DNA of 64,000 bases from Corallium rubrum. Taxonomy: Eukaryota > Cnidaria > Anthozoa > Scleralcyonacea > Coralliidae. The stretch covers positions 53,501 through 117,500 of the forward strand of contig CAXIUP010000114.1 of NCBI GenBank assembly GCA_964035015.1, in the 5' to 3' direction. Within the stretch, counting starts at the first letter, position 1. Each line of letters starts with the position of its first letter. Shown piece by piece: positions 3,128 through 30,978 of the stretch. Made by a program: the position numbers and the translations under genes. The notes under the pieces were generated by a model. The model was given only the letters and a program-made list of their open reading frames with translations. It had not been told where the DNA came from and did no database searches.

Positions 3128-6100
3128 TTTCCCCAAGACCATCCAAACGAATTAAAAAAATAAAGTATTCTATTTTTAGCGCGCTGTGTAAGTATAAACA
3201 ATATGGGCGTCTCGCTTTAAAAGCGAATAACTCTTGAACCAGATCTGGGCCACTTCGAATTTTTCTTGGGCCAGCAAAAGGATAGAATGAGCTTTATTTT
3301 GATATTTAGGAAAGCCGGTTAAAATGAAAAGAAGTCACCGCAATTTTCCCCACAAGTGAATGTGGTGATAGCTTCACAGTTTCGGCGTATGCGGATAACT
3401 CTTAAACCAGATCTGGGTCACTTCTAGTTGTTCTTGGGCCAGCAAGACGATAGAATGAGCTTCAATTTGATATATAGGAAAGCTGGTAAAAAGTAACAGA
3501 AGCCATCGAAATGTTTCCTCCAATGTCTAAGTCGGCAACCACAATTATTAAAGATTTTTAATTCCGGCGCGCTGTAATTGACAGTTTGGGCTTGTCGCTT
3601 TAAAAACGAATAAGTGAATAACTCTTGAACCAAATCTGGGCCACTTCTAATTTTTCTTGGGCCAGCAAGAAGATAGAATGAGCTTCATTTTGAAATATAT
3701 GAAAGCTGCTTAAAATTAAAAGAAGCCATCGTAATGTTTCCCCCAAGACCATCCCGACGAATTAATAATAAAGTATTCTATTTCTAACGCGCTGTGTAAT
3801 TATAAACAATATGGGCTTGCCGCTTTAAAAGCGAATAACTCTTGAACCAGATCTGGGCCACTTCTAATTTTTTTTTGGACCAGCAAGAGAATAGAATGAG
3901 CTTCATTTTGATATATAGGAAAGCCGGTTAAAATGAAAAGAAGTCACCGAAATTTTCCCCCCAAGTGAATGTGGTCATAGCTTCACAGTTTCGGCGTATG
4001 CGGATAACTCTTAAACCTGATCTGGGCCACTTCTAGTTTTTCTTGGGCCAGCAAGACGATAGAATGAGCTTCAATTTGATATATAGGAAAGCTGGTAAAA
4101 AGTAACAGAAGCCATCGAAACTTTTCCCCCAAAGTCTAAGTCGGCAACCACAATTATTAAAGATTTTTATTTCCGGCGCGCTGTAATTGACAGTTTGGGC
4201 TTGTCGCTTTAAAAAGCGAATAACTCTTGAACCAAATCTGGGCCACTTCTAATTTTTCTTGGGCCAGCAAGAAGATAGAATGAGCTTCATTTTGATATAT
4301 ATGAAAGCCGCTTAAAATTAAAAGAAGCCATCATAATGTTTCCCCCAAGACCATCCCGACGAATTAATAATAAAGTATTCTATTTCTAGCGCGCTGTGTA
4401 ATTATAAACAATATGGGCGTCTCGCTTTAAAAGCGAATAACTCTTGAACCAGATTTGGGCCACTTCTAATTTTTCTTGGGCCAGCAAGAGGATAGAATGA
4501 GCTTCATTTTGATATATAGGAAAGCCAGTTAAAATGAAAAGAAGTCATCGAAATCTTTCCCCCAAGTGAATGTGGTGATAGCTTCACAGTTTCGGCGTAT
4601 GCGAATAACTCTTAAACCAGATCTGGGCCACTTCTAGTTTTTCTTGGGCCAGCAAGACGATAGAATGAGGTTCAATTTGATATATAGGAAAGCTGGTAAA
4701 AAGTAACAGAAGCCATCGAAATTTTTCCCCAAAGTCTAAGTCGGCAACCACAATTATTAAAGATTTTTATTTCCGGCGCGCTGTAATTGACAGTTTGGGC
4801 TTGTCGCTTTAAAAAGCGAATAACTCTTGAACCAAATCTGGGCCACTTCTAATTTTTCTTAGGCCAGCAAGAAGATACAATGAGCTTCATTTTGATATAT
4901 ATGAAAGCCGCTTAAAATTAAAAGAAGCCATCGTAATGTTTCCCCCAAGACCATCCCGACGAATTAATAATAAAGTATTCTATTTCTAGCGCGCTGTGTA
5001 ATTATAAACAATATGGGCTTGTCGCTTTAAAAGCGAATAACTCTTGAACCAGATCTGGGTCACTTCTAATTTTTCCTGGGCCAGCAAGAGGATAGAATGA
5101 GCTTCGTTTTGATATATAGGAGAGCCTGTTAAAATGCAAAGAAGTCACCGAAATTCCCCCCCCCCCCCCACCCCAAGTGAATGCGGTGATAGCTTCACAG
5201 TTTCGGCGTATGCGGATAACTCTTAAACCAGATCTGGGCCACTTCTAGTTGTTCTTGGATCAGCAAGACGATAGAATGAGCTTCAATTTGATATATAGCA
5301 AAGCTGGTAAAAAATAACAGAAGCCATCGAAATTTTTCCCCCAAAGTCTAAGTCGGCAACCACAATTATTAAAGATTTTTATTTCCGGCGCGCTGTAATT
5401 GACAGTTTGGGCTTGTCGCTTTAAAAAGCGAATAACTCTTGAACCAAATCTGGGCCACTTCTAATTTTTCTTGGGCCAGCAAGAAGATAGAATGAGCTTC
5501 ATTTTGATATATATGAAAGCCGCTTAAAATTAAAAGAAGCCATCGTAATGTTTCCCCCAAGACCATCCCGACGAATTAATAATAAAGTATTCTATTTCTA
5601 GCGCGCTGTGTAATTATAAACAATATGGGCTTGTCGCTTTAAAAGCGAATAACTCTTGAACCAGATCTGGGTCACTTCTAATTTTTCCTGGGCCAGCAAG
5701 AGGATAGAATGAGCTTCGTTTTGATATATAGGAGAGCCGGTTAAAATGAAAAGAAGTCACCGCAATTTTCCCCCCAAGTGAATGTGGTGATAGCTTCACA
5801 GTTTCGGCGTATGCGAATAACTCTTAAACCAGATCTGGGCCACTTCTAGTTTTTCTTGGGCTAGCAAGACGATAGAATGAGCTTCAATTTGATATATAGG
5901 AAAGCTGGTAAAAAATAACAGAAGGCATCGAAATTTTCCCCCCAAAGTCTAAGTCGGCAACCACAATTATTAAAGATTTTCATTTCCGGCGCGCTGTAAT
6001 TGACAGTTTGGGCTTGTCGCTTTAAAAGCGAATAACTCTTGAACCAGATCTGGGCCACTTCTAATTTTTCTTGGGCCAGCAAGAAGATAGAATGAGCTTC

Positions 6101-7575
6101 ATTTTGATATATATGAAAGCCGCTTAAAATTAAAAGAAGCCATCGTAATGTTTCCCCCAAGACCATCCCGACGAATTAATAATAAAGTATTCTATTTCTA
6201 GCGCGCTGTGTAATTATAAACAATATGGGCTTGTCGCTTTAAAAGCGAATAACTCTTGAACCAGATCTGGGTCACTTCTAATTTTTCCTGGGCCAGCAAG
6301 AGGATAGAATGAGCTTCGTTTTGATATATAGGAGAGCCGGTTAAAATGAAAAGAAGTCACCGCAATTTTCCCCCCAAGTGAATGTGGTGATAGCTTCACA
6401 GTTTCGGCGTATGCGAATAACTCTTAAACCAGATCTGGGCCACTTCTAGTTTTTCTTGGGCTAGCAAGACGATAGAATGAGCTTCAATTTGATATATAGG
6501 AAAGCTGGTAAAAAATAACAGAAGGCATCGAAATTTTCCCCCCAAAGTCTAAGTCGGCAACCACAATTATTAAAGATTTTCATTTCCGGCGCGCTGTAAT
6601 TGACAGTTTGGGCTTGTCGCTCTAAAAGCGAATAACTCTTGAACCAGATCTGGGCCACTTCTAATTTTTCTTGGGCCAGCAAGAAGATAGAATGAGCTTC
6701 AGTTTGATATATAGGAAAGCCGGTTAAAATGAAAAGAAGCCATCGTAATGTTTCCCCCAAAACCGTCCCGACGAATTAATAATAAAGTATTCTATTTTTA
6801 GCGCGCTGTGTAATTATAAACAATATGGGCGTCTCGCTTTAAAAGCGAATAACTCTTGAACCAGATTTGGGCACTTCTAATTTTGCTTGGGCCAGCAAGA
6901 GGATAGAATGAGCTTCATTTTGATATATAGGAAAGCCAGTTAAAATGAAAAGAAGTCATCGAAATCTTTCCCCCAAGTGAATGTGGTGATAGCTTCACAG
7001 TTTCGGCGTATGCGAATAACTCTTAAATCAGATCTGGGCCACTTCTAGTTGTTCTTGGGCCAGCAAGACGATAGAATGAGCTTCAATTTGATATATTGAA
7101 AAGCCGGTAAAAAGTAACAGAAGCCATCGAAATGTTTCCCCCAAAGTCTAAGTCGGCAACCACAATCATTAAAGATTTTTATTTCCGGCGCGCTGTAATT
7201 GACAGTTTGGGCTTGTCGCTTTAAAAGCGAATAACTCTTGAACCAAATCTGGGCCACTTCTAATTTTTCTTGGGCCAGCAAGAAGATAGAATGAGCTTCA
7301 GTTTGATATATATGAAAGCCGCTTAAAATTAAAAGAAGCCATCGTAATGTTTCCCCCAAGACCATGCCGACGAATTAATAATAAAGTATTCTATTTTTAG
7401 CGCGCTGTGTAATTATAAACAATATGGGCTTGTCGCTTTAAAAGCGAATAACTCTTGAACCAGATCTGGGCCACTTCTAATTTTTTTTGGGCCAGCAAGA
7501 GAATAGAATGAGCTTCATTTTGATATATAGGAAAGCCGGTTAAAAGGAAAAGAAGTCACCGAAAGTTTTCCCCCA
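3128..7575 (-). repeat. Same satellite, inverted block
   Basis: From about 3128 every copy of the ~600-bp unit is in reverse complement (for example 5614 to 6214 and 5861 to 6461, again 600 bp apart). The junction is abrupt, in the middle of a subunit. A short C-homopolymer (5156-5170) and scattered substitutions distinguish copies. The array ends near 7575 beside unrelated sequence. Confidence 0.92.
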
Positions 7576-7747
7576 AGACCGAAGAGCGAGTAGTTTCTAG
7601 TAAATCGTTATTTTTCCCATTATAAATTCTTCAAACAAACGCCGTTAATCTTGGGCCAGATAGATGGAATAATAAGCTTTAATTTGGTGTATCGTGTGTG
7701 CCGATCGGTTGATTATTGAAGGAATTATTGAAGGTGAAATATTTGTT

Positions 7748-8346: not shown

Positions 8347-10774
8347 ATGGCCAATACTCCACTCCCTTTATTGATCCCAACAATGGTAAGAGAAATATTT
8401 ATGATTATACTTCATGTTATAAAACTTAAAAAAGCCAATGTTTTCAAGTTTGTAACACATGATGTAATATAAATATTTTGTGTCTTTTCTATAGGAAATC
8501 AGTGATGAGGAATGCGAGGATCCTCATGGTAGGGAAGATAACATGCCAATAGATAATGCAGATCAACAGGTTTGTATTGTTACTCAATACTGTGCAATAA
8601 TGCATGACTCAAATCCAACCGCAATCATGGCGACCCCCAGGGAATTTGACTTTTGAAAATTTGTCTTGTAGTTGAAAACCCTATTCCAAATAACATTTTA
8701 TTTGTTCATGCACCCAAATAAAACACATTGGTTGCCGATCATTTAATCTTTTATGATTTTGAGACGTGTGTGTTTACCAGAAAGCTGATTTACAAGATGA
8801 TAATCGCTCTAGAACAACACTGGGGATAGATTTTTTGCAGGTTTTGCAGGGGGATTTTTTCATGTGGTCAAATGCCCGCCCGGGCGGGATTATGCCAAAT
8901 ACCAGTCCATACGGGACCCGTCACAACTCAGATGCCCGGAAGTTGCCTGGGGGGATGATCGCGGTTAGATTTGACTCATGCATAAAGATGTTTGCTCCAG
9001 CACAATTCTACTTTACTTCAGGTTTCCACTCCAATCATTGCTCCTACTACTCAGCCACATGAGCAGCCTACATGCAGCACAAACCAGCAGGTATATTACA
9101 CAGTCCTACAGTATATGTACAAGAATCTCACAAGCCACAGCGGGATGTGTTTGGTTCCTAACGAATAGGAAGATTGCAAAAAGAGCAACAACATAACAAC
9201 TTGTGTACAAGGCTTGCGAACACATTCTGCATGCGGCTTGTTACAACCTGTGATTCTATGTGACAGTATGTAGTTGTATTGTATGTTTCAAGTTTCATTA
9301 GGATAAACTATGAATACTAATGCCGTAATTTAGCTATTTCTACTTCATTTCAGGATTTGACAACAAATGACACCGATGATCTTAGCACATTGCAAGCAAT
9401 GTTTCCAGGAACAACTCGTCAAGTTTTACAGGATGCAATTGAAAATAATCTAACAATTGATTTTGCAATTGAAGAACTTTTATCTGCTAATGAGGAGGAT
9501 GTTAGTCAAAGTATGTAAATTTCCCATCTGAGGTATATGATGGTCTAGCTTTCTAGTCTTTTCCATCAAATTCAACAATGGGTGTTAAAGGCAACTCACC
9601 TACTCCGAGATTTTATGAGTTTATCCATACCCAGCAAGCAGAGATAAACTCTACTTATCCCATCTGTGAGTCAAAGCGACAACTGAAGTTACTAGCCTGG
9701 AGTGATGCTCTACCAACTGAGCTACAGGTCAAGCTGGGGGTGTCAAAGGTCAAGGTGTGGTCGAGGCAGGTATTTCTAAACAGTCTAGGTCTAGTTTTTT
9801 TTTGCAATATCGCATGTCAATTATAATACAACATGTATCCATATCACATCGATATTGAAGAAATTAAACCTAGTTTCGAAATATTAATTTAACCTTGACC
9901 ATTTCCACACGTCCCCATCATGTAGCTCAGTTGGTAAAACATCGCCCTCAGACACTATGATATACTAACCCAAGGGTTGTGGGTTGGATTCCCAGCTGGG
10001 CCAATTGTAGGCTTTTTCTCTGCTTGCTGGATATAGATTGAATGTTGCTCAGAATTGCCCTTAACACTTAATGTCCACTCCACCAAAGTCTAATTTACCA
10101 TTATAGAAATTCAACGTGTTGAACATTTATCTTGGTAGCTTTCCGATATCACATGCTATACAGTACTTTTGTTAGACATCAATTAAGCTACCTTATGCAT
10201 CAACTAAATGTTCAACAATTGAAATATTGTAAACAAAACAGCAAGCAGTTATTTCTGCTGCTTTGTCCCATAACTCACACAATGTAATATATCTCAACAT
10301 CTGTCTGCAGATTATAACTGGGTCACAAGTCTCACAGAAGACTCAAATGCAACAAACTTAACAACTAGGCTGCATACTGTCAATATATTTATTAAAACAT
10401 ATTTTTTCTTTTAGGCACTTTTGATGTTACAGAGTATTTTAAACGGCAATTACGTGGAGAGCCAAATATCGTGTCTATAGACACAGAGAATCTTTGGGCT
10501 GAAGCATTTAGATTTTATAAATCTGGAGTGGATGGAGCTAGCCCACTACAGGTCTGTTTTTCGGGTGATACAGAAGAGATTGGAGTTGACAGCGGGGGGC
10601 CTAAGAGAGAATTTTTCCAGTTGTTGAGTAACAAGATAGCACAAACAACAACCGGATTTTTTGAAGGTGCTGGAGACAAGATGTTGCCCGTTATGAAAGG
10701 CCCATCATTGCGACTTGGTCATTTCAGAATAATTGGCAATATCATTGCACACTCGATAATTAATGGAGCAATAG
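8347..10774 (+). CDS. Partial CUE-HECT E3 ubiquitin ligase-like gene
   Basis: Spliced plus-strand exons: a tentative first exon ending at 8385 (ATG at 8347, donor ATG|GTAAGA), 8495-8569, 9354-9510 and 10415-10774, with compatible phases (0, 0, 1, 1). Exon 9354-9510 encodes a CUE-like ubiquitin-binding helix bundle (LSTLQAMFPGT, then a DFAIEELLS helix). Exon 10415-10774 encodes the HECT N-lobe, with LWAEAFRFYK, the conserved VDSGGPKREFF motif and a GHFRIIGNIIAHSIING helix. HECT enzymes pass ubiquitin from an E2 through a C-lobe cysteine to a substrate. The C-lobe and its cysteine are not found before the satellite begins at ~11081, so the gene is truncated or continues elsewhere. It differs from the HECT gene at 19899-28008 and is not a simple copy. 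The first exon is the weakest part. Confidence 0.7.
8601..8982. mobile_element. MITE with TAA target duplication
   Basis: Ends are inverted repeats of about 38 bp (left TGCATGACTCAAATCCAACC; the right end is its diverged reverse complement, ending at GAGTCATGCA when read in context). TAA flanks both sides (8598-8600 and 8983-8985), which fits a PIF/Harbinger-type 3-bp duplication. It lies in the intron between the second exon and the CUE exon. No coding capacity seen. Confidence 0.75.
9650..9727 (-). mobile_element. tRNA-derived SINE fragment
   Basis: On the minus strand, positions 9725-9705 read as a tRNA A-box (TGTAGCTCAGTTGGTAGAGC), followed about 55 bp on by a degraded B-box-like GCTTTGACTCA. 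No intact tRNA fold is evident, so I call it SINE-derived. Confidence 0.4.
9913..10002 (+). mobile_element. tRNA-like SINE or tRNA pseudogene
   Basis: Contains an A-box (TGTAGCTCAGTTGG, from 9921) and a B-box (GGTTGGATTCC, 9982-9992) at tRNA-like spacing. The acceptor stem does not pair well and no confident anticodon arm is seen. It is a tRNA-derived repeat or decayed tRNA gene within the HECT intron. Confidence 0.5.
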
Positions 10775-11080: not shown

Positions 11081-14000
11081 CTGATTAGCTACAGTTTTGC
11101 CACCTTCAAAATATTGAAAAACGCTTATCTCGCGATTCTGAGTCGAAAAAAGTTATATTCTCAAATAAGCTCCAAAACGCCAAATTATCGGTAAAAATGA
11201 TGTTTGTGACCTAAAATTAGCAAAACAACACATTTGGAATTATTCCCTCAACCATTCTTATTTGGCAGTTTTGCCACCTTCAGAATGTTGAAAAACTTTT
11301 ATCTCGCGATTCTGCGTCGAAGAACGTTTTTTTCTCAATTAAGTGCCATTTGGCACTAATAATAATATGTATATATAATATGTATAAATATAATATATAC
11401 GTATATATAATAATATGTATATATAAGAATATGGCATTTGCCAAATTATTGGTAACAATGAGGTTTGTGATCTAAAGCTAGCAAAACAACACATTTGGAA
11501 TGATTCCCTCAACTTTTGTGTTTTGCCAGTTTTGCCACCTTCAAAATGTGGAAAAACGCTTATCTCGCGATACTTAGTCGAAAAATGTTTTTTTCTTAAA
11601 TAATCTCAAAATGCCGAATTATCGTTAAAAATGATGTTTATGACCTAAGACTAGCAAAAGTACCCATTTGGAATGATTCCTTCAACTTTTCTATTTTTGC
11701 AGTTTTGCCACCTTCAAAATGTTGAAAGACGCTTATCTCGCCATTCTGAGTCGAAAAAAATTTTTTTTCCCAATAAGGCCCAAATTCCAAATTATCGGTA
11801 AAAATGATGGTTAACTCATTCCTGTCCGGGGGCTTCCCCAGAGGTGAATAAAATCGTCTGGGGTTAGCCAGAATAAAATACTAAAGACCAATTCGGACAA
11901 GAAAGAGTTAAAGAGATAGTCTATAACTCATTCCTGTCCGGGGGCTTCCCCAGAGGTGAATAAAATCGTCTGGCGTTAGCCAGAATAAAATACTAAAGAC
12001 CAATTCGGACAAAAAAGAGTTAATTCTGAAAGAAAGAGTTAAAGGGATAGTCTATAACTCATTCCTGTCCGGGGGCTTCCCCAGAGGTGAATAAAATCGT
12101 CTGGCGTTAGCCAGAATAAAATACTAAAGACCAATTCGGACAAAAAAGAGTTAATTCTGACGTAAAACTAGAAAAACAACACATTTGGAATGATTCCCTC
12201 ATATTTTCTATTTTGGCAGTTTTTCCAGCTTCGAAATGTTGAAAATCGTTTAACTCGCCATTCTGAGTCGAAAAAAGTTTTTTTCTCAAATAAACGCCAA
12301 ATACCAAAATAGAAAAAACTGACGTAAAACTAGTAAAACAACGCATTTGGAATGATTCCCTCACTTTTTTATTTTGGCAGTTTTGCCACCTTCAAAATCT
12401 TGAAAAACGCCTATCTCGCCATTCTGAGTCGAAAAAAGTTTTTCTCTCAAATAATCTCCAAAAGCGAAATTATCGGTAAAAATGATGTTTCTGACGTAAA
12501 ACTTGCAAAAGAACACATTTGGAATGATTCCCTCAACTTTTCTATTTTGGCAGTTGCCACCTTCAAAATGTTGAAAAAGGTTTATCTCGTCATTCTGGGT
12601 CGAAAAAAGTTTCTTTCTCATATAAGCTCCAAATCCCAAATTATCGGCGAAAATGATGTTTGTGACCTAAGGCTAGTTAAACTGCACATTTGGAATGATT
12701 CCCTTAATTTTTCTATTTTGGCAGTTTTGCCACCTTCAAAATGTTGAAAAACGCTTATCTCGCCATTCTGAGTCGAAAAAAGTTTTTTTCCCCATTAAGC
12801 TCCAAATGCCAAATTATCGGTAAAAATGATGTCTGACGTAAAAATAGCAAAACAACACATTTGGAATGATTCCCTCAACTTTTCTATTTTGGCAGTTTTG
12901 CCACCTTCAAAATGTTGAAAAACGTTTATGTCGTCATTATCGGTCGAAAAAAGTTTTTTTCTCAAATAACTGCAAATGGGAAATTATCGGTAAAAATGAT
13001 GTTTCTGACGTAAAACTAGCAAAACAACACATTTGGAATGATTCCCTCAACTTTTCTATTTTGGCAGTTTTGCCATATTTCAAAATGTTGAAAAACGTTT
13101 ATCTCGCGATTCTGCGTCGAAAAACGTTTTTTTCTCAAATAAGCGCCAAATGCCAAACTATCGGAAAAAATGATGTTTCTGATGTAAAACTAGGAAAGCA
13201 ACACATTTGGAATGATTCCCTCAACCTTTCTATTTTGGCAGCTTTGCCACCTTCAAAATGTAGAAAAACGCTTATCTCGCCATTCTGATTCGAAAAAAAT
13301 TTTTTTCCCCATTAAGCTCCAAATGCCAAATTATCGGTAAAAATGATTGTTCGGACGTAAAACTAGCAAAACAACACATTTGGAATGATTCCCTCAACTT
13401 TTCTATTTTGGCAGTATTGCCACCTTCGATATGTTGAAAATCGTTTTTCTCGGCGTCAGAATTCGAAAAAAGTTTTTTTCTCAAATAAGCGCCAAATGTC
13501 GAACTATCGGTAAAAATTATTTTTCTGACCTAAAAATAAGCAAAACAACAAATTTGGAATGATTCCCACAACTTTTCCATTTTGGCAGTTTTGCCACCTT
13601 CAAAATGTTGAAAAACGTTTATCTCGCGATTCTGCGTCGAAAAACGTTTTTTTCTCTAATAAGCGCCAAATGCCAAATGATCGGAAAAAATGATGTTTCA
13701 GATGTAAAACTAGCAAAACAACACATTTGGAATGATTCACTTAACTTTTCTATTTTGGCAGTTTTTCCACCTTCAAAATGCTGAAAAACGTTTATCTCGC
13801 GATTCTGAGTCGAAAAAAAAGGTTTTTTCTCAAATAAGCTCCAAATGCCGAATTATCCGTAAAATGATATTTGTGACATAAAACTAGCAAAACAACACAT
13901 TTGGAATGATTCCCTCAACTTTTCTATTTTGGCAGTATTGCCACCTTCAAAATGTTGAAAAACGCTTATCTCACCATTCTGAGTCGAAAAAGTTCTTTTC

Positions 14001-18411: not shown

Positions 18412-19334
18412 TTCATTTGGAATGATTCCCTCAACTTTTCTATTTTGGCAGTTTTGCCACCTTCAAAATGTTGAAAAACCTTTATCTCGCGATTCTGCGT
18501 CGAAAAACGTTTTTTCTCAAATAAGTGCCAAATGCCAAATTGTCGGTAAAAAATGATGTTTCTGATTCAAAACTAGCAAAACAGCACATTTGGAATGATT
18601 CCCTCAACTTTTCTATTTTGGCAGTTTTGCCACCTTCAAAATGTTGGAAAACGCTTATCTCGCGATTCTGAGTCGAAAACAGTTTTTTTCTCAAATAAGC
18701 CCCAAAATGCCAAATTATCGGTAAATATGATGTTCCTGACCAAAATCTAGCAAAACAACACATTTGGAATGATTCTCTCAACTTTTCTATTTTGGCAGTT
18801 TTGCCCCCTTCAAAATATTGATAAACGCTTATCTCACCATTCGGAGTCGAAAAAAGTTTTTGTCTCAAATAAGCTCCAAATGGCACATTATCGGTAAACA
18901 TGATGTTTTTGACGTAAAACTAGCAAAACAACACATTTGGAATGATTCCCTCAACTTTTTTACTTTGGCAGTTTTGCCTGCTTCCAAATGTTTAAAAACG
19001 TTTATCTCGCGATTCTGCGTCGAAAAAAGTTTTTTTTTCTCAAATAACCGCCAAATGCCAAATTATCGGTAAAATGATGTTTCTGATGTGAAACTAGCAA
19101 AACAACACATTTGGAATGATTCCCTGAACTTTTCTATTTTGGCAGGTTTATGTCGCGATTGTGAGTCGAAAAATTTTTTTTCTCAAATAACCTCCAAATG
19201 CCGAATTATCGGTAAAAATGATGTTTCTGACCTAAAACTAGCATAACAACACATTTGGAATGATTCCGTCAATTTTTCTATTTTGGCAGTTTTGGCCCCT
19301 TCAAAATATTGATAAACGCTTATCTCACCATTCT
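18412..19334 (+). repeat. ~170-bp satellite, forward block left of transposon
   Basis: Same repeat, forward again. It stops mid-unit at ...CTCACCATTCT, where the large transposon begins; the unit resumes at 30973 on the far side. Confidence 0.93.
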
Positions 19335-19776
19335 TACGGTGGCCCACAAGTGCAGCGCACAAATATATTTAAAACGCACAAATATATTTAAAACGCACAA
19401 ATATATTTAGAAACGCACAAATATATTTAGAAACGCACAAATATATTTAAAAACGCACAAATATATTTAGAAACGCACAAATATATTTAGAAACGCACAA
19501 ATATATTTAGAAACGCACAAATATATTTAGAAACGCACAAATATATTTAGAAACGTACAAATATATTTAGAAACGCACAAAGATATTTAGAAACGCACAA
19601 ATATATTCAAAACATAAATATTTTCGAAACGCAGAAATAAATGTCGAAACGCAGAAATAAATGTCAAAACGCAGAAATAAATGTCGAAACGCAGAAATAA
19701 ATGTCGAAACACAGAAATAAATGTCGGAACGCAGAAATAAATGTCGAAATACAGAAATATATGTCGAAACACGATA
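19335..19776 (+). repeat. Left terminal inverted repeat with tandem subrepeats
   Basis: A unique ~25-bp tip is followed by about 13 units of a ~20-21-bp repeat (AAACGCACAAATATATTTAG, to ~19615). Then come about seven units of a second 20-bp repeat (GAAACGCAGAAATAAATGTC, 19626-19776). The right end mirrors this order. Tandem motifs of this kind could bind the transposase. Confidence 0.92.
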
Positions 19777-19898
19777 TGAAAGCAAGATAAAGTATTCAGC
19801 CGAGGGACTAAGCGCCCGCTGGCTGCGAAAAGCAAATAAACGCGGGGAAAATACAGAACGTCATTGCTATTTTGTTTATAAAACGATGTCTGGCAGCC

Positions 19899-22107
19899 AT
19901 GTTTTGCTCAAGTTGTGGTACGTGTATGCAAATAAGCTTCAAGTTTTGCCCATCTTGCGGAAAAGGAAAGGTCGAAGATAAAGGCGAGCATAGCAGGAAT
20001 GCAGCATCATCCTCGAATGAGAGTAAAGAGTCGAATGAGAGTAAAGAGTCAAAAAACAGCCGGCCAAATACGTCATTTAAAGAATTTATGAGGAAGAAAA
20101 ATGAAGAGAGGGCCTCGAATTTTAGACCGTCGAAGAAGGCGCGTGTTGCGGACATCGCGAATAAGCAAGAGGTTTCCATAAACATTGGGATTATGGAATT
20201 GAACGAGGAAGCGGTGGGGATCCCCTTAAGAGGTAAAAGCTTGCCACTGAAGATCGTGAAAGAGGTCGACTACGATACCCTATTGGCATCGGCGCTGAAA
20301 AAACGCGGCGACTACGACAAAACGTTCGACTGTGAACGCGCATACAAGCTGGTATATCCAGATGGGCAATCCGCTCAAACCATCCCAGGTTCCTTCGAAC
20401 TTTTTACTCTGGTCAAGTATAAGCAAGGGCTTGGAAAAAGCTACGGCAGGCTAACACTGTACTTGTGCCCAATTTTTCTAACAGTGTAAAGGTGGATGAA
20501 GAGCTACGCAGTGATACTGACAGTGATGGAAGTGTTGGTTTACCCCCTGGGATTAAAGCCGCGAGACCAACAGAAACAATCTTGACCTTCTTGAGACCTA
20601 CAGAAACAATCGTGAGACCAACAGAAACAATCCTGATTAACGACGAAACTGATAACAATAACCCATCACCAACAGGGTATCCAGAACATAACGATGAAGG
20701 CTCATTCTATTCAACTGATTTCCTGTAAGTGCATTTACCGTAATTTCTCTATTAATGGGGCTTATATTTTTCAAACTTGTTTTGAGGGGGGTCTTAATTA
20801 TTTTCTGCTTCCAAAAAGGGGGCTTATTAGAGTGGGGGCTTAAAAGAGTGGGGGACTTAAGAAGGGGGGCTTCTAAAAACCAAGAAATTACGGTATGTAT
20901 GACTCATTTAGCCATGAAGATGGGGGAGGCCTATTTAATTTTTCAAAGTTTCTAAAAACAAACTTTCAGTTGATGGAGTTTATATTTAATTATTTAAACA
21001 CAAAATGCTGAATGTACGGTTATAAGGGGGGCTTAATAGAGGGGGCTTATGATAAGGAGGGCTAAATTGAGGGAGGAGCTTGATAGAGGAAATAAAGGGT
21101 ATACAGTAGAACTTGAGTTTTACGACCACCCCTGTTGCCAGGTAAAAGTGGTCGTAAATGACAGGAGGTCGTACATGGCAAGTAGTGATGTGACGTCATA
21201 GCAGCCATTTTGGCAGCGACGCAGCGCTTCTTTATATAAACATTGTTTCAAGGTTAGGAAAATGGCGATTTATAAAGATTTACAAGGGAAATGGAAAAGC
21301 AAGAACATTTCAAAGAAGTGCAGTCTTGATTTATTAATGTTAATATGGTTATTAAGAGAAAAAGAATTTGACATTTGTGCGTTTAATACACTGAAATATC
21401 ATGGCCTTTATAGAGCGATGTTCTCCATATCAAAATCGTGTCGTACTATCGTTCACTTCAGTTTTTGCGCTGTGTTTTTATTACATTTGATTCAATTTTT
21501 ACGCTGGTTTGGTCTTGTTAAAAGCTCTTGCCTTTATTTACGATCTTCCAGTAGTATTTTTTAGATGTGAACACTGAGTTTTGTCACTTTCCTTTCCAAG
21601 TTAAAAAGCCGTTGTAAAATCGTTGTAAAATAACGTCAACGATCGTCAAGATCAACTTGTCTAAAATTAACAAGTCTTACTCATGGTTTCGAATTGTTCA
21701 GTCATTGTATTAACTCTCAAACATCAACTAAAAAGTATTTAACTCTGACAACAAAAATTCACACAGATTTTCATCAAATAATGCTCAAAAGAGAAGCAAA
21801 CAAGTCTAAAATGCGGTATGAAACCGGAAGTGTTGCACAATTGCCGTATTGTTTTCGCATGTGGTCGCATTCGCGTTTGTTTACTACGAAAAAACGGGCG
21901 TTTCTTTAACGTATTTCGGCAGTTTTATGTTCAGATGGTCGCTCACAGCAGGTAAATATCTTGTTTGGGACTAAAAAGTGGTCGCTGGTCGCGTTAGGCA
22001 GGTGGTCGCACATCGGAGGTACATTTCTATTACAAATCGTCCGTGCCAGAAAAAGTGGTCGTAAACAGCAGGTGGTCGTTAAAAGGGGTGTCGTAAAACT
22101 CAAGTTC

Positions 22108-22151
<44 letters not shown>

Positions 22152-25100
22152 TATATTCAGTACTTCAGTTCCATTCAGGTTAATTATATTAATATTTAGA
22201 CGAGGTAAAATAATAAGAGGGGGTATTGTGGATCAATGGATTAACATGAGACATGTACAGATAACATGGGTTAACCCATTAACACCCGACACTATCTCAG
22301 GAGAGTGCAAAGTCTCTAACATGAAAAGGGCACCTGTGCCCTCTGTGCCCCAAGAGGTGCCCTTTTTCCCAGCTTTGGCCAGCTGTTTTTACATTCCTGG
22401 TAATTGGTAAAGGGCTGTCCTCCCCTAGTTCTAGCATCCATTATTTGTGTTTAATTATTTTTAATATGAACACTTGAATAATGAAACTGATAAAACTAGG
22501 CAGTTGTTGTCTGTTAACATTTTGTATGCATCTGCATTTAGTAAAGAAGCAAAATAGTTCGATATCAATAACATACTTGTTCAAATGAAATACGAAACAT
22601 TTACTCTCCATTTATAATAAATAATGTAAGTTTATAAAACACATGCAATTGATTTATTTTCATTTTTCCATGTAGACCAATTGGCATAAGTGAAAATGAA
22701 GCGATTGAAGAGGCTATCCGGCAAAGTATCGAGCAGCATTCAGCAGATACGGAAGAAGTCCAAGAAGAAAAGACAGAATTGACCGAGGCCGAATTGGTGA
22801 CAAGAGTGAAAGAACATTCTGATAGAGTTGTTTCTGGAAACACAAAGGCAATTGTTGTGAGCAGGTTAAATCTTTGGAAAACAGCGCTTCCCTATTTCAA
22901 AAGAAATGGATTTTTGAAAAATCCTGGTCTTATATGTGTCACCTTCGCTACATTTACCGAAGAAGAGGATGCTGTGGATTTAGGGGGTCCAAGAAGAGAA
23001 TTCTTTCATCTTTTGCTTGTGGCTATCTGTAAAGATAGTGGGATATTGACAAGTACAGTATAAAAATTATATTCTTTATGTTGCTATTTTTATTATTGGA
23101 AATGGCTGAACATTAATAGCACATCTTAATCCTACCCTATTTATTATACCATGCATATAAGTGTCCCCCAGATGTAGGTACATGTGCTTATATCTGGATA
23201 CATTTCCCATTAATGCACAAGCTGCAAGTTATCCTTTTAGCAAGTAAAATTGTCTGGCTTTGACAGAGCTTACAATAAAGGGGGAGCATTGCTGCTTAAT
23301 GGGTTATCATATTTCCTAATTTAAGGCCTTCGAGGGGGGACTTAATTTTACAAATTTCTAAGACCAAATTTTCTGTTATTGAAGTTATTTAGACAGTAAA
23401 TACATGGGGGAGGGATAATGAGGGAGGGGGCATATGTCCATTTTTCACTAGTTGAGGGGGCTTATTAGTTAGGAGGGGGCTTAAATGAGGGAGGGGCTTA
23501 ATATAGGAAAAAAGGTAATATATAAACTCCATCTCAATTCTCTCCTTTTTTGCCCATCTTAAATTAAGGCTCTGGAATACAATTTATAACTCATTCTGTT
23601 ATTTTATTTATCTATTCCAGGCACCTCAGTGGGCTTCATAGCCCGATGCAACATTAAGTGTTTGCAGAACCATGACTACTTGACAGTTGGGCAAATGCTT
23701 GCTACTATGATTGTTCAAGGAGGTGAACAGCCTTCTTTGTTCACCAAGTCTATATGCAATTACATCAGTATGGGCTTAGATGCAAGCAATCCTGGTATTG
23801 AGGAGGTGCCAGACTACACCATAAGAGACAATTTAAAAAGGGTAAAATATAAATTGGTAGATTAATTCATAAATTCAAGCATATATCGATTGCAGCAAAA
23901 TTATACTGTCATGACAGGTGTGGCCAACCATGGTATATTTCCCATACTTGTATGTCAACAGTCGTATTTTCAATGGGTAGCGTCAATTGCATTTCTTGAA
24001 TGTATAAATATTGTTATCTTAACTGAGGTGCCATTTTATTGGCTTACTATATGGGGCCTTTCTGCCTTGAAAATAAATAACATATATGAATATATGATAG
24101 GAATTAAAATCCTGGTCTTTTTCTTAATTTTAGCTATCCGATGCAAAAACAAAAGAAGAATTAGAAGCAGTTTTCAATGAATGTGAATGGAGATTCGAGA
24201 TTGATGGTCTGCCAACAACCATAACCCTTGAGGATAAGGAGAGTTTTGTAATGCAAGTGGCAAAGTACTTTGCAATTATTAAATGCAAGCCAATGCTGGA
24301 CCAGTTAATAGAGGGTCTAAAGTACTATGAGGTACAGTATAAAATTTCTGTTTGCCAAAAGACATCTATCCCTTGTGGACAGGGCTCTCTGGGAAGAAAC
24401 AAGAGGAGCCTGACAAAAAGAGCTCGCCAAAGTGGTAAGGGGCTCTTTTTAGAGCCTCTGGGAATTATACAGAAACTGGGTAGTGGATGGGTCTACTAAC
24501 ATAATTAATGACATTGAGATTATTTGAGAATGAGTTAGCACTGCAGCCCTTGCACAGTGGATAGTTTATACTTTATAGAAGAATATAGTAACAATTTTAT
24601 TACAGTAAATAAAATTATGTTAAACATTTTAATTTCTAAACAAAAATAACATGAAAATGATGAAAAGCAAATTATCAATATTACAAAACAGGAAAAAGTT
24701 AGAGATGTTCATAGACATACTGTACAGTTCAGTGTCAGTGACAATGTGAATTGTGACATAGTGACTACATTGAGCCATTGACAGATTATCCTTATTTACA
24801 ATTTTACATGTTTCTCACTCAGTAACTCTGTAAGACAGTAAGACTGTAACTGCAGTATATACTATAACTTATAACTGCTGTATATATTAGTACGTAACAG
24901 TGTCACTCAGACTACTCAGTGCAGAGTGCTAATTCACATCGATGCAAATGCAATCAGATATTCAGATTATCAGATACAGAATCTTCATCAAATTCATCAC
25001 TACTGTTGCTGCAGGCGCTGCTGGTATCCCTGCCTATTTCATGGGCTTTTCCCTTAAAATGACGATCCACATTGTGTTTCGTCACTTTGTTTGTGCCGTC

Positions 25101-28008
25101 GATAAATATTTTCATCGCCTTTTTTGCGTTTCCTCGACATGTGGGGTGCTGTAAGATTGAAGTTGGATTTCGACTGCAAACTTTGCACCATATCGACACT
25201 ACTGAAGTTGCACCTTCGACTTCTTCGGTTTTGACACCCAAGTTGTCTTCTTTCCCCCACGACTTGAAGTTTAACTTTGACCCCTTTTGAATTTAATGCC
25301 ACCATATATTAACATTCATCATTGACAGATTGACTATTCATATATTATTCAATCGACGCCATTTTTAGATTTTGAGAGCATGGTAACATCCTAGTTCCAG
25401 TACTAATACTCGGCCACAAACTGTCATGCCAGCAATTCTCCTTCTCAAGCACTGATACGCACGTTTTGGGAACGAGATTGCCAGCGATTAAAGAAAACTT
25501 AAAGCTTGCAAAATTGATTGATAAAATCCAAACTTTATAGTGTTTTGTTGTTCACTTCAAGTTCCCACAGTATATTCAATACTACTTGGTAGGTTTTTTT
25601 TGTAAGATATTCTATTTAAGGCGCTTGATTTTTCGAGCTCGCCAACCGTTTTGAGGCGCGTTTTCCAGGCGCGCGGGCGCTAGCGCGCCTTTCCTTGAGA
25701 GCCCTGCTTGTGGATTATAATGACCGGCATTTCACCAAACAACAACTCAGAATGGGTCATTCCAGAAAACATCCACACCTCCCCCACAGGAGGAAATGTG
25801 AAGTTGACCCCCTCCCCCCTTTGGACATCTTAGTACATTTTACTATTATCACAAGTAGATTTACCCTCCTCCCCTCCCCAGATGGCACAAATTTCCTCTG
25901 TGGGGGGAGGTATGGATCTTTTCTGGAATGACCCAATGGCCGTTTATGCACTTTACAAAGTGTTAAGGATCATGATTGTACTTTTTACTTACATTTGTAA
26001 GTTTCTTTATAGGAGTTTATACAAATAGAAGGCATATCATGTCATTGTCTATGCTTTCATATTTCAGGGTTCGAAATAGCAGCCGGCTGCCGGCTCTCGC
26101 CGGCAGTTTTAGGAGCTTGCTGGCAATTTCTAATTTCATTTTTCCAAGATCAGAATTATTGTAATTTGTTTTGATTTCTCTGTATACTGTATGATCGAAA
26201 AGAAACCAGTATTTGGTTTAGAATACATTATTTGGGCCTATGTCCAGAACGTAACTTTGCTGCTTGGGAAACAGCCGGCAAAAATTTTGACCTACAAAAA
26301 CAGCCGACAAAATTAGGCATATTTTCTGAACGTTATTTCGAACCCTGTATTTTGTATTTATTATTATCAACATTAATGTTTCATAATTTATCTTGCGAGA
26401 ACATGTACAAAACAATTGAAAAATGGGAATGGGTCATTCCAGAAAAGATCCATACCTCCCCCACAGAGGAAATCTGTGCCATCTGGGGAGGGGAGGGGGG
26501 TAAATCTACTTCTGATAATAGTAAAATGTACTAGGACGTCCGAAGGGGGGATGGGGTCAACTTCACATTTCCTCTGTGGGGGAGGTGGGGAGGTGTGGAT
26601 GTTTTCTGGAATGACCCAATTCAAAAGGGAACTCAAAATGGGAATTAAAACTTGCTGTGTATGTTTAACTTTCAGGTATTTGACTTGATGTCTGGAAACC
26701 AGGACATGACATATTTCTTATTGCTGAAGAAATCTACTCCTCTCACAGCCAAACAAGTTGTTAGAATTTTGCGTCCAGCATTTTCTCCTCCTGGTAATAA
26801 CAGACGTGTACAAGAGGAAGTTGTCATGACAAAATTTGTCGAGTTTCTTGGTTTGTGTGAAGGTAGGCCTTAAAATGTACACTGTTTGGTATACTTTGAT
26901 ACTGTACTGACCTTATAACCAGTAAATTATTGCTTCATACCATGGGTTTAGCCAGAAGCCCATCCACCTGTCTTTTGGATGGGCATTTTTTAAAGTGGAT
27001 GGGTAAAAATTGATACCAAAACTCCAGTATTTAGTCTTTAGTTCTTTAATACAACTGTACAAGCTTTAGTTTTGCTATGACATTCAACAGTCACTGCACA
27101 TACCTTGACCACAAGATACAAGTTCCTATGTTTTTGTGAAATATTTAGTATTTTAGGACTGAATTTGGTGATATTTCAATCTGCAGAGGGTAGATGTAAA
27201 CCATAACCCTATCAACATGACATCACATGTTAGCATAATTGCATTCTACAACCACTGAGACAAATGCACACATTTTCAGTAAAAAACAGTGTGGGTGACT
27301 AATTGTTAAATATAGACAAAGAAAATGATTTTGCTGTTGTTTGCTCTCCAATTTAGAGTACTTTTGTTTTCCAGAATGCTCAGAATCGCGTTTTCAGAAG
27401 ACCTGGTTACAAATTTTTTCGAGGTGGGTGGCATGCCCCCAGACCTCCCTAGTAGTGCGGGCACTTTTGGACGGGTAGATTACTAATCCTGGCTAAGGCT
27501 TTGCTTCATACTACTTACTGAATATTAGTTAAAAATCAGTAAAAAGGCCAGCATATGATTTTTAAGCCACATGTTCAATGACAATGTACAAAAACTTCAA
27601 AGCATGCCCCGTTCTACAAATATAAGGAACAGGTGGGGTAAGTAATTCATGTACCAAAACCCAAAGTTTATATATGGCATTTTAATTTCCTCTTATTTAG
27701 AAAATGCTCTTCTACAACGCTTGGAGGAAGATGGCCAAGAGCTTACACCGGAGCAAAAGAAATTTATACCAATGATTACTCCAACACACATTCTCATGTT
27801 TTCAACTGGAGCATGTGGAATCCCAGCTATTGGTTTCCATCCGACTCCATCTTGTTGTTTTGTGCATGACGAGAGCAAAGCTATTCCATGTGCGCAAACA
27901 TGCTCAAACATGCTCTATCTGTATGTTAACAAAAAAACAGTGGAAGGAGGTTGCTTAGATTATTTTGTCACTGCTCTTATGAATGGGGGCATTTTTAGCA
28001 AACTTTGA
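19899..28008 (+). CDS. Zinc-ribbon/UIM/HECT E3 ubiquitin ligase (G2E3-like), transposon-borne
   Basis: Exons: 19899-~20465, ~20465-20724, 22676-23052, 23621-23841, 24134-24331, 26676-26862, 27701-28008; GT-AG junctions join in phase from 20724 on. Start ATG at 19899 (GCCATGT). Order in the ~700-residue product: zinc ribbon (MFCSSCG...FCPSCGK), Ser/Glu-rich disorder, a basic patch, a conserved-looking region (RGKSLPL...YKLVYPDGQ), a low-complexity RPTETI repeat, a ubiquitin-interacting motif (ENEAIEEAIRQSIEQHSA), then HECT. The N-lobe has VDLGGPRREFF. The C-lobe has IPCAQTCSNMLYL, where the TC cysteine (codon 27901-27903) matches the catalytic ubiquitin acceptor. HECT enzymes load ubiquitin from an E2 and pass it to a substrate. 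One frame break near 20465 remains unexplained. It lies between the transposon ends, converging on the integrase gene. Confidence 0.88.
20736..20895. mobile_element. Short inverted-repeat element (TACCGTAATTTCT ends)
   Basis: Ends are TACCGTAATTTCT and its inverse AGAAATTACGGTA. The interior is rich in GGGGGCTTA-like blocks. Related GGGGGCTTAATA-rich remnants continue at 20896-21100 and recur at 23330-23515. Lies in the intron after exon 20724. Confidence 0.6.
21104..22112. mobile_element. Tc1/mariner-like non-autonomous element
   Basis: Ends are inverted repeats (AGTAGAACTTGAGTTTTACG at the left, its reverse complement at the right) flanked by TA. The interior has repeated GGTCG motifs near both ends and a 100-codon frame at 21262-21564 that I do not recognise. 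No DDE transposase was seen. A (TA)n run follows at 22111-22142. It sits in the long HECT intron 20725-22675. Confidence 0.65.
24380..25706. mobile_element. hAT-type element with perfect 8-bp target duplication
   Basis: Termini CAGGGCTCTC and GAGAGCCCTG are exact inverses. CTTGTGGA occurs immediately outside both (24372-24379 and 25707-25714): an exact 8-bp duplication, as expected for hAT. It contains a minus-strand zinc-finger frame. Only ~1.3 kb long, so internally deleted. It lies in the HECT intron 24332-26675. Confidence 0.88.
24954..25241 (-). pseudogene. hAT transposase N-terminal zinc-finger remnant
   Basis: The minus-strand frame has SIWCKVCSRNPTS followed by TKHNVDRHFKGKAH, a C-x2-C...H-x(4)-H arrangement like the BED/TTF-type finger at the start of hAT transposases. 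An acidic tail follows and the frame stops; the catalytic RNase H-fold and dimerisation regions are absent. Its position inside an element with hAT termini supports the call. The upstream frame (to 25305) is shifted, so the true start is unclear. Confidence 0.6.
25754..25934. mobile_element. MITE (GGGTCATTCCAGAAAA ends), copy 1
   Basis: Ends GGGTCATTCCAGAAAA and its inverse, flanked by AAT on both sides. The interior has two GC-rich blocks. A second copy in opposite orientation lies at 26431-26617 in the same intron. Confidence 0.75.
26065..26347. mobile_element. MITE with TATTT target duplication
   Basis: Left end CAGGGTTCGAAATA, right end TATTTCGAACCCTG. TATTT flanks both sides (26060-26064 and 26348-26352). 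Non-coding. Confidence 0.8.
26431..26617. mobile_element. MITE (GGGTCATTCCAGAAAA ends), copy 2, inverted
   Basis: Same family as 25754-25934 in reverse orientation, again flanked by AAT. Two inverted copies ~500 bp apart could pair in the pre-mRNA of the HECT gene. Confidence 0.75.
26948..27496. mobile_element. Possible degraded inverted-repeat element in HECT intron
   Basis: TTAGCCAGAAGCCCATCCAC at the left and TAATCCTGGCTAA at the right are a partial inverse pair in intron 26863-27700. No clear target duplication. Low support. Confidence 0.3.
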
Positions 28009-28126
28009 AGAAACAAATATTACACATTCGTAGAAGTTTTTATAGCTATATATTAAGGACCAAAATAGAGTGGGTATTTTTATAATACAAGTAATAGTTA
28101 CAATTCACCAGAACTACCCTGCCTGG

Positions 28127-28379
28127 GGCCAGTTGTTCAAAGATGGGTTAGTGTTAACCCTGTGTTAAAGTATAACCAACTGTTTTCGTTTGTGTATTTC
28201 TACCTTTCTGGATGTCTGTTTATTTCAAAACTTTAAAAAGGAATTTCAGTATATGCAGAGATTTGTGTAAATATACATGTATTTCAAAGTTAACATCCCC
28301 ACATGGTCTTGGTAATAAAGTTAGCTTTAACGTTTTGTGTTAACCTAGATTTAGCTAACCCGCTTTTGAACAACTGGCC
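28127..28379. mobile_element. MITE with CCTGG target duplication
   Basis: Ends GGCCAGTTGTTCAAA and TTTTGAACAACTGGCC. CCTGG flanks both (28122-28126 and 28380-28384). It lies ~120 bp beyond the HECT stop codon, probably in the 3' untranslated region or just after it. Confidence 0.8.
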
Positions 28380-28551
28380 CCTGGTTATTAAAAGAAGGCT
28401 ATGAGTAAAAGTAACAAGAAAAGGGTAATGCTTTGAGGTCTGTTCAGATAAGTCCAGCTTGTGACTTAAGTAAAACAAATTATATCTGTTTAAAGGACTG
28501 TTCTCATCCCACTTATGGGGGAAAATACATTAAAACAAGCAAACATAGTAA

Positions 28552-28960
28552 CTAGGGCTGCTCCCATCAGTTCATTTTCATAATCGATTAATCGTTGTCA
28601 ACAATCGATTAATCAATATTAATCGTATTGAATAGATTAGATTGAATAGATGTCCACTGTTACTAAATTCTTCAAATTTAAAAGTATCTTCAGTTTCAAA
28701 GTACCAGTTAACTTCGCACGCAGTGAGTAAATTTCACCTACAATATTTTGACCTCTGTTCTTATGTAAACAATAATTTGCCTATCTTGAATTGGACGGCT
28801 AATAGAGCACGAGTACTAGTGCTGCTTTTGTCGCTAGTTTTTTAATTTCAGAAAGAAACTCATTCCCAGCATCATGATGTGCACAATCCGATTACTGTTA
28901 AGAATAATCGATTGTGGAAAAAAACGGGAAAAATAATCGATTAATTGGGAGCAGCTCTAG
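28552..28960. mobile_element. Inverted-repeat element rich in ATCGATTAAT
   Basis: Ends CTAGGGCTGCTCCCA and TTGGGAGCAGCTCTAG are inverse, with TAATCGATTAATCG motifs just inside both ends. No convincing target duplication. It lies between the HECT and integrase genes; the rest of 28009-29233 shows no gene. Confidence 0.65.
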
Positions 28961-29233
28961 TAGTAACCTCAAAATATGACACTTTTTGGTTCAATTTTAA
29001 TGCAAAATTACTGAATAAAAGTAGGGTATCTAACTTGGGGAGTGTTCCAGTTAGCCGGTCTATGTGTATACATGTAGGCCCATATGCAACCAGAAGTTCA
29101 GAAATATCAACAACATTAAGTTTTGATTGTATAATTTCTGTTAATGTTATTTGTTTTGTAAAAATTATAGCATTTATAAATTATTAAATTGCATTATTTT
29201 ATGCTGATAAAATATCTTACTCATGCAGTTTTT

Positions 29234-30483
29234 TTACCTGGAAACTGCTATAGTAAGCAATTGGTCATACAATTCAGTTGCATCTCTCCAGTTTGTTGGC
29301 AATGTGGCTCTTAATTCATTCTCATAAATATATTTGAAATATTCTTGATAATCATTGTCATCATCTTCCTGAGCATCTTCACAATGTTGGGACATGTCTT
29401 CCATTTGCACTTCTGTTACTGGTTTGATGTAATTCATCGCTCCAACACTCTCAGGTAAATGGTAAAGTACATCTGGTTTGCCAGCAATGGTGTCATGCCT
29501 GGACCGACGAATGTAATGGCTATTCCAGTGCTCCTTGATGTCATCAAGTTCTTTTTCAAAAGATTTGAAAAACAAAACCACAAACATTCCATGTGCAACG
29601 GATTTGCGGTATTCAAAACATCTCTGTCGATCATGTCTTTAAAGAAATTCATCCACCAATTTGTGCGACTTTTTCTCAAATAGGACCACCATGACTCGAT
29701 CCTCTGATTAGCTGGTGAAGCCCCATACTTATGTGCCTTGACACCAGCATGATCATCATCTCCATCACAACGGAAATAGCACTGCATTCCCGCCACAATT
29801 ACATTTTCAGTTCCATTGTCTGACCTGAGCATGGTTGGACAACCTCCTTCTTCAACGATGGTATTCAGAAAAAACTTGGCAATAACAGCTGGGTTATTGT
29901 TTGTCCTGGCTACTTCCAGCCATATAATTCGACGGCTGAAACCGTCTATACAACCGTGAACTGGAAAGCCGTAAGGCTTAAGTTTATCGTAACCGTCCAT
30001 GTGCCAAACATGGTTTGGGCCAGGATTTCTGTACTGCCTTCGACGCAAACACTTCGCTCTTCTTACTTCACAGCCTTCAGGGTCGAGTTCTTTGAGGGTA
30101 TTTTGAACCACGTTCCTTGGGACTTGCATACCCTCAAGACGAAGTGTATGCCATACGGAACGATAACCTCCAGAACAACCAGGTCCATCTATTTCTTCTT
30201 GAATTCGATTACGAACATTATTTATGTCATACGCGACGTTTTTTCTTTTTAAGCCCATATCAGAGAGGCGCTTTTTCAGTGTTCGAAGGGAAAACGTAAT
30301 GTTGTGTTTTGTTTGTAAAAACAATCTTATCTCTTCATACGTAAATCCGTTATTAAAATAATGACGGATTAAATCTTCTTCTGCTTCTTCCTCAAAAGGT
30401 AAGTCAGTAGCACTACCACAAAATACACAAAATCTACACAAACGTTCAAGTTGTCCTCCGCAGTTCGTACAAAACATCGCCAT
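29234..30483 (-). pseudogene. DDE integrase/transposase of the large transposon, one frameshift
   Basis: Intronless. ATG at 30483 (or 30477, just before the zinc ribbon); a longer frame runs back into the terminal repeat. Order: zinc ribbon (MFCTNCGG...FCVFCGS), a helix-turn-helix region (FTYEEIRLFLQTKHNITFSL then RTLKKRL), then an integrase core with likely catalytic Asp in HVWHMDGYD, Asp in LRSDNGTEN and Glu in NQRIESWWSYLR (spacing about 59 and 41 residues). The core resembles rve/IS3-type integrases, which join element ends to target DNA. The frame breaks near 29545-29560 in an A-run; the sister frame 29587-29234 carries on with KELDDIKEHW and ends at 29234. So this copy encodes a truncated protein, unless the base is a sequencing error. 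Confidence 0.85.
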
Positions 30484-30521
30484 TTGCAACCATGGCTTCC
30501 TCACAAGCGTATTTTCTTTCG

Positions 30522-30972
30522 ACATATATTTCTGTATTCCGACATTTATTTCTGCGTTCCGACATTTATTTCTGTGTTTCGACATTTATTTCTGCGTTTC
30601 GACATTTATTTCTGCGTTTCGACATTTATTTCTGCGTTTCGAAAATATTTATGTTTTGAATATATTTGTGCGTTTCTAAATATCTTTGTGCGTTTCTAAA
30701 TATATTTGTACGTTTCTAAATATATTTGTGCGTTTCTAAATATATTTGTGCGTTTCTAAATATATTTGTGTGTTTCTAAATATATTTGTGCGTTTCTAAA
30801 TATATTTGTGCGTTTCTAAATATATTTGTGCGTTTCTAAATATATTTGTGCGTTTTTAAATACATTTGTGCGTTTCTAAATATATTTGTGCGTTTTTAAA
30901 TATATTTGTGCGTTCCTAAATATATTTGTGCGTTTTAAACATATTTGTGCGCTGCACTTGTGGGCCACCGTA
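30522..30972 (-). repeat. Right terminal inverted repeat with tandem subrepeats
   Basis: Reverse complement of the left end: GACATTTATTTCTGCGTTTC units (30522-30650), then TATTTGTGCGTTTCTAAATA units to ~30945, then the tip ending CCACCGTA at 30972. Unit-to-unit substitutions differ between the two ends, so they are not a recent exact copy of each other. Confidence 0.92.
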
Positions 30973-30978
30973 CATTCT

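Follow-up and report, generated by a model that had tools for sequence, protein, structure and literature searches.

A transposon with two facing genes

The window analyzed here is a stretch of 64,000 nt of Corallium rubrum DNA, in which a DNA transposon of 11,638 bp spans positions 19335-30972; all coordinates of the element are window positions. Its two genes are convergent, i.e. directed inward: a transposase gene lies on the minus strand and a HECT ubiquitin ligase gene with six exons on the plus strand. The features of the element and of its target site duplication (TSD) and terminal inverted repeats (TIRs) are:

19329..19334, no strand: left TSD copy, CATTCT, 6 bp
19335..19366, plus strand: left TIR, 32 bp, perfect, starting with TACGGTGGCC
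19356..19770, plus strand: left subterminal array, built from two types of 20-bp repeat unit and in inverted orientation to the array on the right
19899..20724, plus strand: HECT exon 1, with zinc ribbon and beta-grasp-like domain; frame break near 20476
22676..23052, plus strand: HECT exon 2, with UIM-like motif and start of the HECT N-lobe
23621..23841, plus strand: HECT exon 3
24134..24331, plus strand: HECT exon 4
25790..26574, no strand: nested inverted-repeat insertion in the fourth HECT intron, with arms of 117 nt that are 94% complementary
26676..26862, plus strand: HECT exon 5
27701..28008, plus strand: HECT exon 6, with C-lobe, catalytic-type cysteine (IPCAQTCSN) and stop
29237..30483, minus strand: transposase, with zinc ribbon, Clr5/helix-turn-helix-like region and rva_4 DDE core; frame change near 29545-29572
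30517..30951, minus strand: right subterminal array of 20-bp repeats
30941..30972, minus strand: right TIR, 32 bp, perfect
30973..30978, no strand: right TSD copy, CATTCT

The termini at 19335 and 30972 form inverted repeats that are identical over 32 bp; the left one reads TACGGTGGCC and the right one GGCCACCGTA. Beyond the TIRs, the inverted similarity continues for about 440 bases in tandem repeats of 20 bp, which are of two unit types. The 16-bp end has exactly two matches in the window, one per strand; in shuffled sequences the mean number of matches was 0.23 at up to three mismatches, and three of 100 shuffles reached two. The insertion site is a satellite with a period of 173 bp. Excising the element and one CATTCT in silico restores CTCACCATTCTGAGTCGAAAA, which is continuous satellite sequence, and the restored junction is found again in the window outside the element: CACCATTCTGAGTCG occurs five times, CATTCTGAGTCGAAAA 16 and five times on the two strands. 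An initial annotation of this DNA had proposed exact inverted repeats, a perfect CATTCT duplication and a mobile unit of 11.6 kb, all of which were confirmed; the restorable empty site that it placed in a 170-bp satellite is likewise continuous after excision, but the period has to be corrected to 173 bp.

The exon model of the HECT gene is based on GT-AG sites read from the sequence and is consistent with the Dendronephthya protein P0121, which is 44% identical to the window HECT over 94% of the query. The endpoint "DFL" of exon 1 is common to nine of ten related exon-1 open reading frames (ORFs; P0127-P0136). The part of the spliced protein downstream of the frame break matches the Pfam HECT profile with 37.9 bits (cut-off 23.9; P0121 reaches 53.8 bits). 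In the profile alignment, Rsp5 and AREL1 are matched through the TC motif that is conserved in the C-lobe. The transposase possesses all D, D and E residues; it matches the Pfam family rva_4 at 5.6e-30, whereas the 29 bits for rve are under the cut-off of 32.6. Octocoral names (Dendronephthya, Xenia, Paramuricea) are among the nearest protein matches. The 5' ends of the two genes have no DNA in common beyond an 11-base chance match. Aligned with P0001, an intact relative of 97% identity, the transposase shifts into another frame near 29545-29572, at a point past its three catalytic residues; HECT exon 1 switches frame near 20476. These breaks may be mutations or assembly errors. The inward pair of a DDE integrase and a HECT ligase with intact catalytic cysteine, as first annotated, is present, although both genes are frame-broken in this copy.

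Copies of the element and its mobility

In the genome of 474 Mb, the 33-base end has six matches with at most three mismatches. A second full copy of 11,670 bp is located at C13:9580718-9592387; it is flanked by the TSD ATTAAC and is 99.1% identical to the window element in ungapped columns, and its transposase is open over the whole length. The 200-bp flanks of the window element have no match at the C13 copy. A gene-less copy of 100 bp with the TSD GAAAAC was found on C8 and a lone left end at C28:5899934. The ends alone can move, as is expected of a cut-and-paste family with non-autonomous derivatives. Five further complete elements contain a HECT gene; their transposases share 53-58% identity with a close relative of the window transposase:

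C39:2466487-2476428, TSD GAGAAA
C12:6171820-6178628, TSD ATTTAC
C12:11741084-11750367 (C12b), TSD GTCGTA
C39:12048907-12056785, TSD AAAGAC
C28:7831936-7839924, TSD CCAATC

These five were located via TAYGG..CCRTA end pairs, with candidates ranked by TSD match; at four of the five loci there was only one candidate, and C12b had another one without TSD. The window element and the six other complete elements all have TACGG..CCGTA ends, and exact 6-bp TSDs flank these seven as well as the 100-bp C8 copy. Since copies reside at different loci with different exact 6-bp TSDs, the unit has moved; the element is mobile. In C39:2466487-2476428, the transposase and six HECT exon segments are open, save for two HECT segments with stops at their front edges, which we take as intron sequence.

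Association of HECT and transposase genes

With P0001 as query, the best 100 of 1361 first-look candidates were considered as transposases, many of which are near-identical repeated copies. The search with P0121 gave 713 first-look candidates, 67 of which were scored; 87 exon matches were listed and merged into 47 loci. Within 15 kb, a limit picked after elements had been seen, 29 of the 47 listed HECT loci have one of the 100 listed transposases; about 0.6% per locus would be expected if placement were random. The orientation is convergent in all 29 position-paired loci. A HECT gene was seen beside 35 of the 100 listed transposases: 29 were paired by position and six more by sequence beyond the listed P0121 matches (C12:6177188, L025, L028, L030, L031, L032). 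The 1.5-kb flanks of 30 transposase loci (L016-L045) contained HECT in five cases (L016, which is the C13 copy, L024, L025, L031, L032).

For ten transposases, at least 7.4 kb of downstream sequence were available. HECT was known beforehand for three of them (window, C13 and C161, the last being chosen because its flank showed HECT), whereas seven were chosen without such knowledge: two on C39, two on C12 and one each on C28, C1 (L030) and C82 (L023). A convergent HECT gene lies downstream of six of these seven. Both ends and an exact 6-bp TSD occur within the fetched stretch for seven of the ten transposases, all starting with TACGGTGGCC; no two-ended, TSD-flanked element was found within the fetched stretches of C161, C1 L030 and C82 L023. 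Seven elements with both ends, exact 6-bp TSD, transposase and convergent HECT therefore bear out the proposal of a DNA transposon encoding its own HECT ligase. Copies of the ends that enclose the integrase alone, a possibility raised with the initial annotation, are absent among the seven two-ended elements; at the same time, HECT was seen beside only the 35 of the 100 listed transposases.

At C161:24758-26026 (G000, L024), a transposase whose first catalytic aspartate is replaced by histidine stands beside an otherwise conserved HECT C-lobe.

Constraint and co-divergence

Between the HECT genes of C39 (2466487) and C12b, the proportions of nonsynonymous (pN) and synonymous (pS) differences over 672 codons are 0.251 and 0.726, a ratio of about 0.12 at a synonymous divergence (dS) near saturation; for the transposases of the same pair, the ratio of nonsynonymous to synonymous divergence (dN/dS) is 0.064. 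In the underlying alignments, exon 5 is largely missing from the comparisons with the window, and 57 bases of C12b exon 2 are omitted. Judged by these ratios, both genes are under constraint between the two families. Pairwise transposase and HECT distances of nine elements, a set excluding C1 L030 (a short piece) and duplicate copies, correlate with r 0.81, and four of 20,000 permutations were as high. The HECT distances (0.34-0.81) exceed the transposase distances (0.26-0.52) in these nine. The aligned transposases, among which the C13 copy stands for the window, have the second D and the E in nine of nine cases and the first D in eight of nine (H in C161). The catalytic-type cysteine is kept in ten of ten distinct HECT C-lobes.

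Domains of the HECT ligase

Most family members with a visible N-terminus begin with a zinc ribbon, followed by a conserved "INIGLM..RGKSLPLK" domain; in one C39 element the N-terminal ribbon was not seen. The model of the N-terminal domain has a predicted local distance difference test (pLDDT) score of 76.5, and its Foldseek matches are ubiquitin-like with a best E-value of 1.1e-3, none being at or below 0.001; a ubiquitin-like (beta-grasp) fold is thus supported, not proven, by the model. The structure model of the full-length HECT protein was poor (pLDDT 47.6) and was not used. The slot between the N-terminal domain and HECT is variable: a UIM-like motif occurs in the window, C39:2466487, C12b and P0121, a CUE-like domain in P0123 (Pfam E 0.023) and in a remnant near 9.4 kb of the window (E 0.0039), both below cut-off, and a C2HC finger in C39:12048907. 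The UIM and the C2HC finger are motif readings; the Pfam scan of the HECT proteins gave no UIM and no UBZ. All three would be ubiquitin-binding modules, with sub-threshold profile support for CUE only. The HECT protein of the C12 element has no Pfam HECT match, yet it aligns to P0121 at 2e-12 in a comparison of five proteins.

The remnant just mentioned belongs to a second HECT gene of transposon type on the plus strand at window positions 9390-9500 and 10402-10770, of which the CUE-like stretch and a portion of the N-lobe of HECT are left. No element ends were found for this remnant (9390-10770), which lies near the beginning of the 173-bp satellite.

Classification

As described by Kojima and Bao (2023, PMC10045372), IS3EU/GingerRoot elements have TA..TA termini, usually 6-bp TSDs and an integrase-like DDE transposase that lacks the HHCC motif of retroviruses. 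Because of its TA..TA ends, its 6-bp TSD and its rva_4 integrase, the coral element belongs, as far as sequence features can place it, with this superfamily.

Interpretation and alternative explanations

We consider it highly probable that the window element is an IS3EU/GingerRoot-type copy from a lineage with two facing genes, a DDE transposase and a HECT ubiquitin ligase; this confidence applies to the identity and the lineage of the element, not to the target of the ligase. Due to the multi-family elements, the convergent pairing, the kept cysteine and the low dN/dS in one comparison between families, HECT appears to be a stable second gene in the lineage rather than a one-off cargo; given its presence in diverged families and the constraint, "cargo" is too weak a term.

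Several observations weigh against this reading. Barring assembly errors, the window copy, frameshifted in both genes, is probably not fully coding, and HECT exons 1 and 4 of the C13 copy are frame-shifted. In the window-C13 comparison, the HECT exons (4/2024 differences) are weakly less diverged than noncoding DNA (39/6256; p 0.02), with 16 of the 39 differences in one noncoding bin and the exon edges used being off by one or two bases; the transposase is not less diverged than noncoding DNA (p 0.54). This pair is too young for strong evidence of constraint. The dS of the C39-C12b HECT comparison is near saturation, and that of the other HECT pairs compared is saturated. No transposase among the best 100 of 1361 is located within 15 kb of 18 of the 47 listed HECT loci; for two of these, the nearest one is at 17 and 24 kb. 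No HECT was seen beside 65 of the 100 listed transposases, most of which were checked only against the P0121 list; there, HECT may be absent, more divergent or deleted, and integrase-only elements may exist. The HECT of C1 L030 is a C-lobe piece only, and the stretch downstream of C82:2638957 (L023), which contains runs of N, showed neither HECT nor ends.

With regard to mechanism, family knowledge and the TSDs suggest that the transposase would pair the TACGG ends, cut, and insert with a 6-bp stagger. Less certain is the part of the ligase, which might be recruited via its zinc ribbon, a ribbon of the same type as in most transposases examined, and might ubiquitinate a protein at the transposition complex or its chromatin. 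The shared ribbon type would allow both proteins to meet at one place, perhaps at the element ends or at each other; some transposases are without the ribbon by the pattern used. Our leading guess for the target, a tentative one, is a host factor that either restricts or promotes transposition; a host-facing role is favoured because the ligase was long kept, evolves faster than the transposase and changes in its middle parts.

Ranked second, and rather doubtful, is the transposase itself or the strand-transfer complex as target: the ligase would limit the amount of its own transposase or strip the complex from DNA after insertion. A bacterial unfoldase removes the phage Mu complex in a comparable way. 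Zinc ribbons of one type often form the N-terminus of both proteins, the ribbon of the HECT relative P0131 being 61% identical to the transposase N-termini L018-L020 over 23 residues, and the ribbon pattern occurs in 17 of 24 transposase ORFs scanned; moreover, the two genes are opposed within a single unit and diverge in a correlated manner. However, the C12:6177188 family (L035-L038, L040, L041) and L045 are without ribbon by this pattern, while the C12 element keeps its HECT, and the faster divergence of HECT is more like that of a host-facing protein.

An improbable alternative is that separate IS3EU families captured HECT genes repeatedly from different sources instead of inheriting one from a common ancestor. 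The varying middle slot (UIM-like, CUE-like, C2HC finger) would agree with this explanation, as would the identity of only about 19-27% between the HECT parts of some families; but the N-terminal domain is common across families, the ribbon is present in most, the orientation is constant where the genes are paired, and transposase and HECT distances are correlated. Very unlikely is a passenger, i.e. a host HECT gene trapped once in the window family and of no role for the element: the broken HECT frames in both copies of this family (window, C13) would fit, whereas HECT genes are found in diverged families with full ends and TSDs, are constrained between two families and are convergent in all position-paired loci. 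A chance neighbourhood, where a transposon has landed in or beside a HECT gene of the host or where two TIRs bracket unrelated DNA, has next to no probability: a single copy alone could not argue against it, but the C13 copy refutes it by repeating the whole 11.7-kb unit with its own TSD and with flanks unlike those of the window, and there are six other complete elements in all.

Beyond the stable second gene of a two-gene lineage, we lean slightly towards a wider picture, in which an old animal lineage of IS3EU elements carries the ligase as a conserved second gene (zinc ribbon, ubiquitin-like domain, swappable ubiquitin-binding module, HECT) that acts on the transposition complex or on chromatin, and in which many cnidarian and fish "G2/M phase-specific E3 ligase-like" genes are transposon genes, not host expansions. 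If this is true, a lineage keeps its own ligase in the long term, and ubiquitination contributes to the movement of some DNA transposons or to their evasion of the host; expansions of G2/M-specific ligase-like gene families may then be transposon copies.

Other features of the window

The 173-bp satellite that holds the insertion extends over positions 11439-32806; its orientation flips near 15857 and back near 18410, and a separate repeat of 112-131 bp lies within its region at 11812-12161. A second satellite of about 217 bp occupies positions 1-7580, with an orientation switch between about 3124 and 3391. On the minus strand, a two-ORF non-long-terminal-repeat retrotransposon is located at 58819-63329; we take its ORF of 1001 amino acids to encode an endonuclease and reverse transcriptase, and the upstream ORF of 530 amino acids to be a look-alike of the SGNH-hydrolase type. 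An open frame at 43077-43676, also on the minus strand, presumably resembles part of a protein kinase.

Comparison with known systems

The coral element resembles the IS3EU/GingerRoot elements described so far in its TA..TA ends, its 6-bp TSD and its IS3/IS481-like DDE transposase, and differs by its HECT gene; the terms HECT and ubiquitin occur zero times in the main text of that description (PMC10045372). Fungal TET-bearing IS3EU families have TAYGG..CCRTA ends and a 6-bp TSD (Kojima 2025, PMC12730594); in these fungal elements, transposase and alpha-kinase gene are opposed, with a TET/JBP dioxygenase between them. The coral element is alike in end pattern, TSD length and the opposed second gene, which in the fungi is an alpha-kinase and not a HECT gene; here, too, both terms occur zero times in the main text (PMC12730594).

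The literature search, with Repbase outside its scope, gave no title or abstract on a HECT-bearing IS3EU element, in line with the initial annotation, to which no DNA transposon with such a gene was known. Because the searched literature held none and the two IS3EU papers are without HECT in their main text, we call the HECT-bearing IS3EU element a previously undescribed form of a known superfamily, as far as this literature is concerned. No relatives were found in plasmids and viral contigs, and PDB sequences searched with the transposase or P0121 alone gave no matches. Contigs from GTDB contained two short loci without HECT, which look like eukaryotic contaminants. A 3865-bp contig of a Myxococcales metagenome-assembled genome in GTDB (L001), filed as bacterial, has an open frame of 657 amino acids with an IS3EU-like integrase core; this contig is probably a eukaryotic contaminant.

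Proteins named "G2/M phase-specific E3 ubiquitin-protein ligase-like" from tilapia and Xenia (P0124, P0125) are cellular proteins by source name. P0124, with 27% identity over 97% of the query, has a HECT domain as well as the zinc ribbon and the conserved N-terminal domain of the window protein; P0125 is similar in the HECT part. Other transposons have a ubiquitin-system enzyme of their own: RAG1/Transib contains a RING ligase, and plant elements encode Ulp1-type proteases. In RAG1/Transib, the RING is located within the recombinase itself, whereas the ligase of the coral element is encoded by a separate HECT gene; in contrast to the protease of the plant elements, the coral enzyme is a ligase. 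Together with the fungal alpha-kinase and TET genes, the coral HECT gene suggests that in the IS3EU superfamily the transposase has more than once been joined by an enzyme that modifies protein or DNA.

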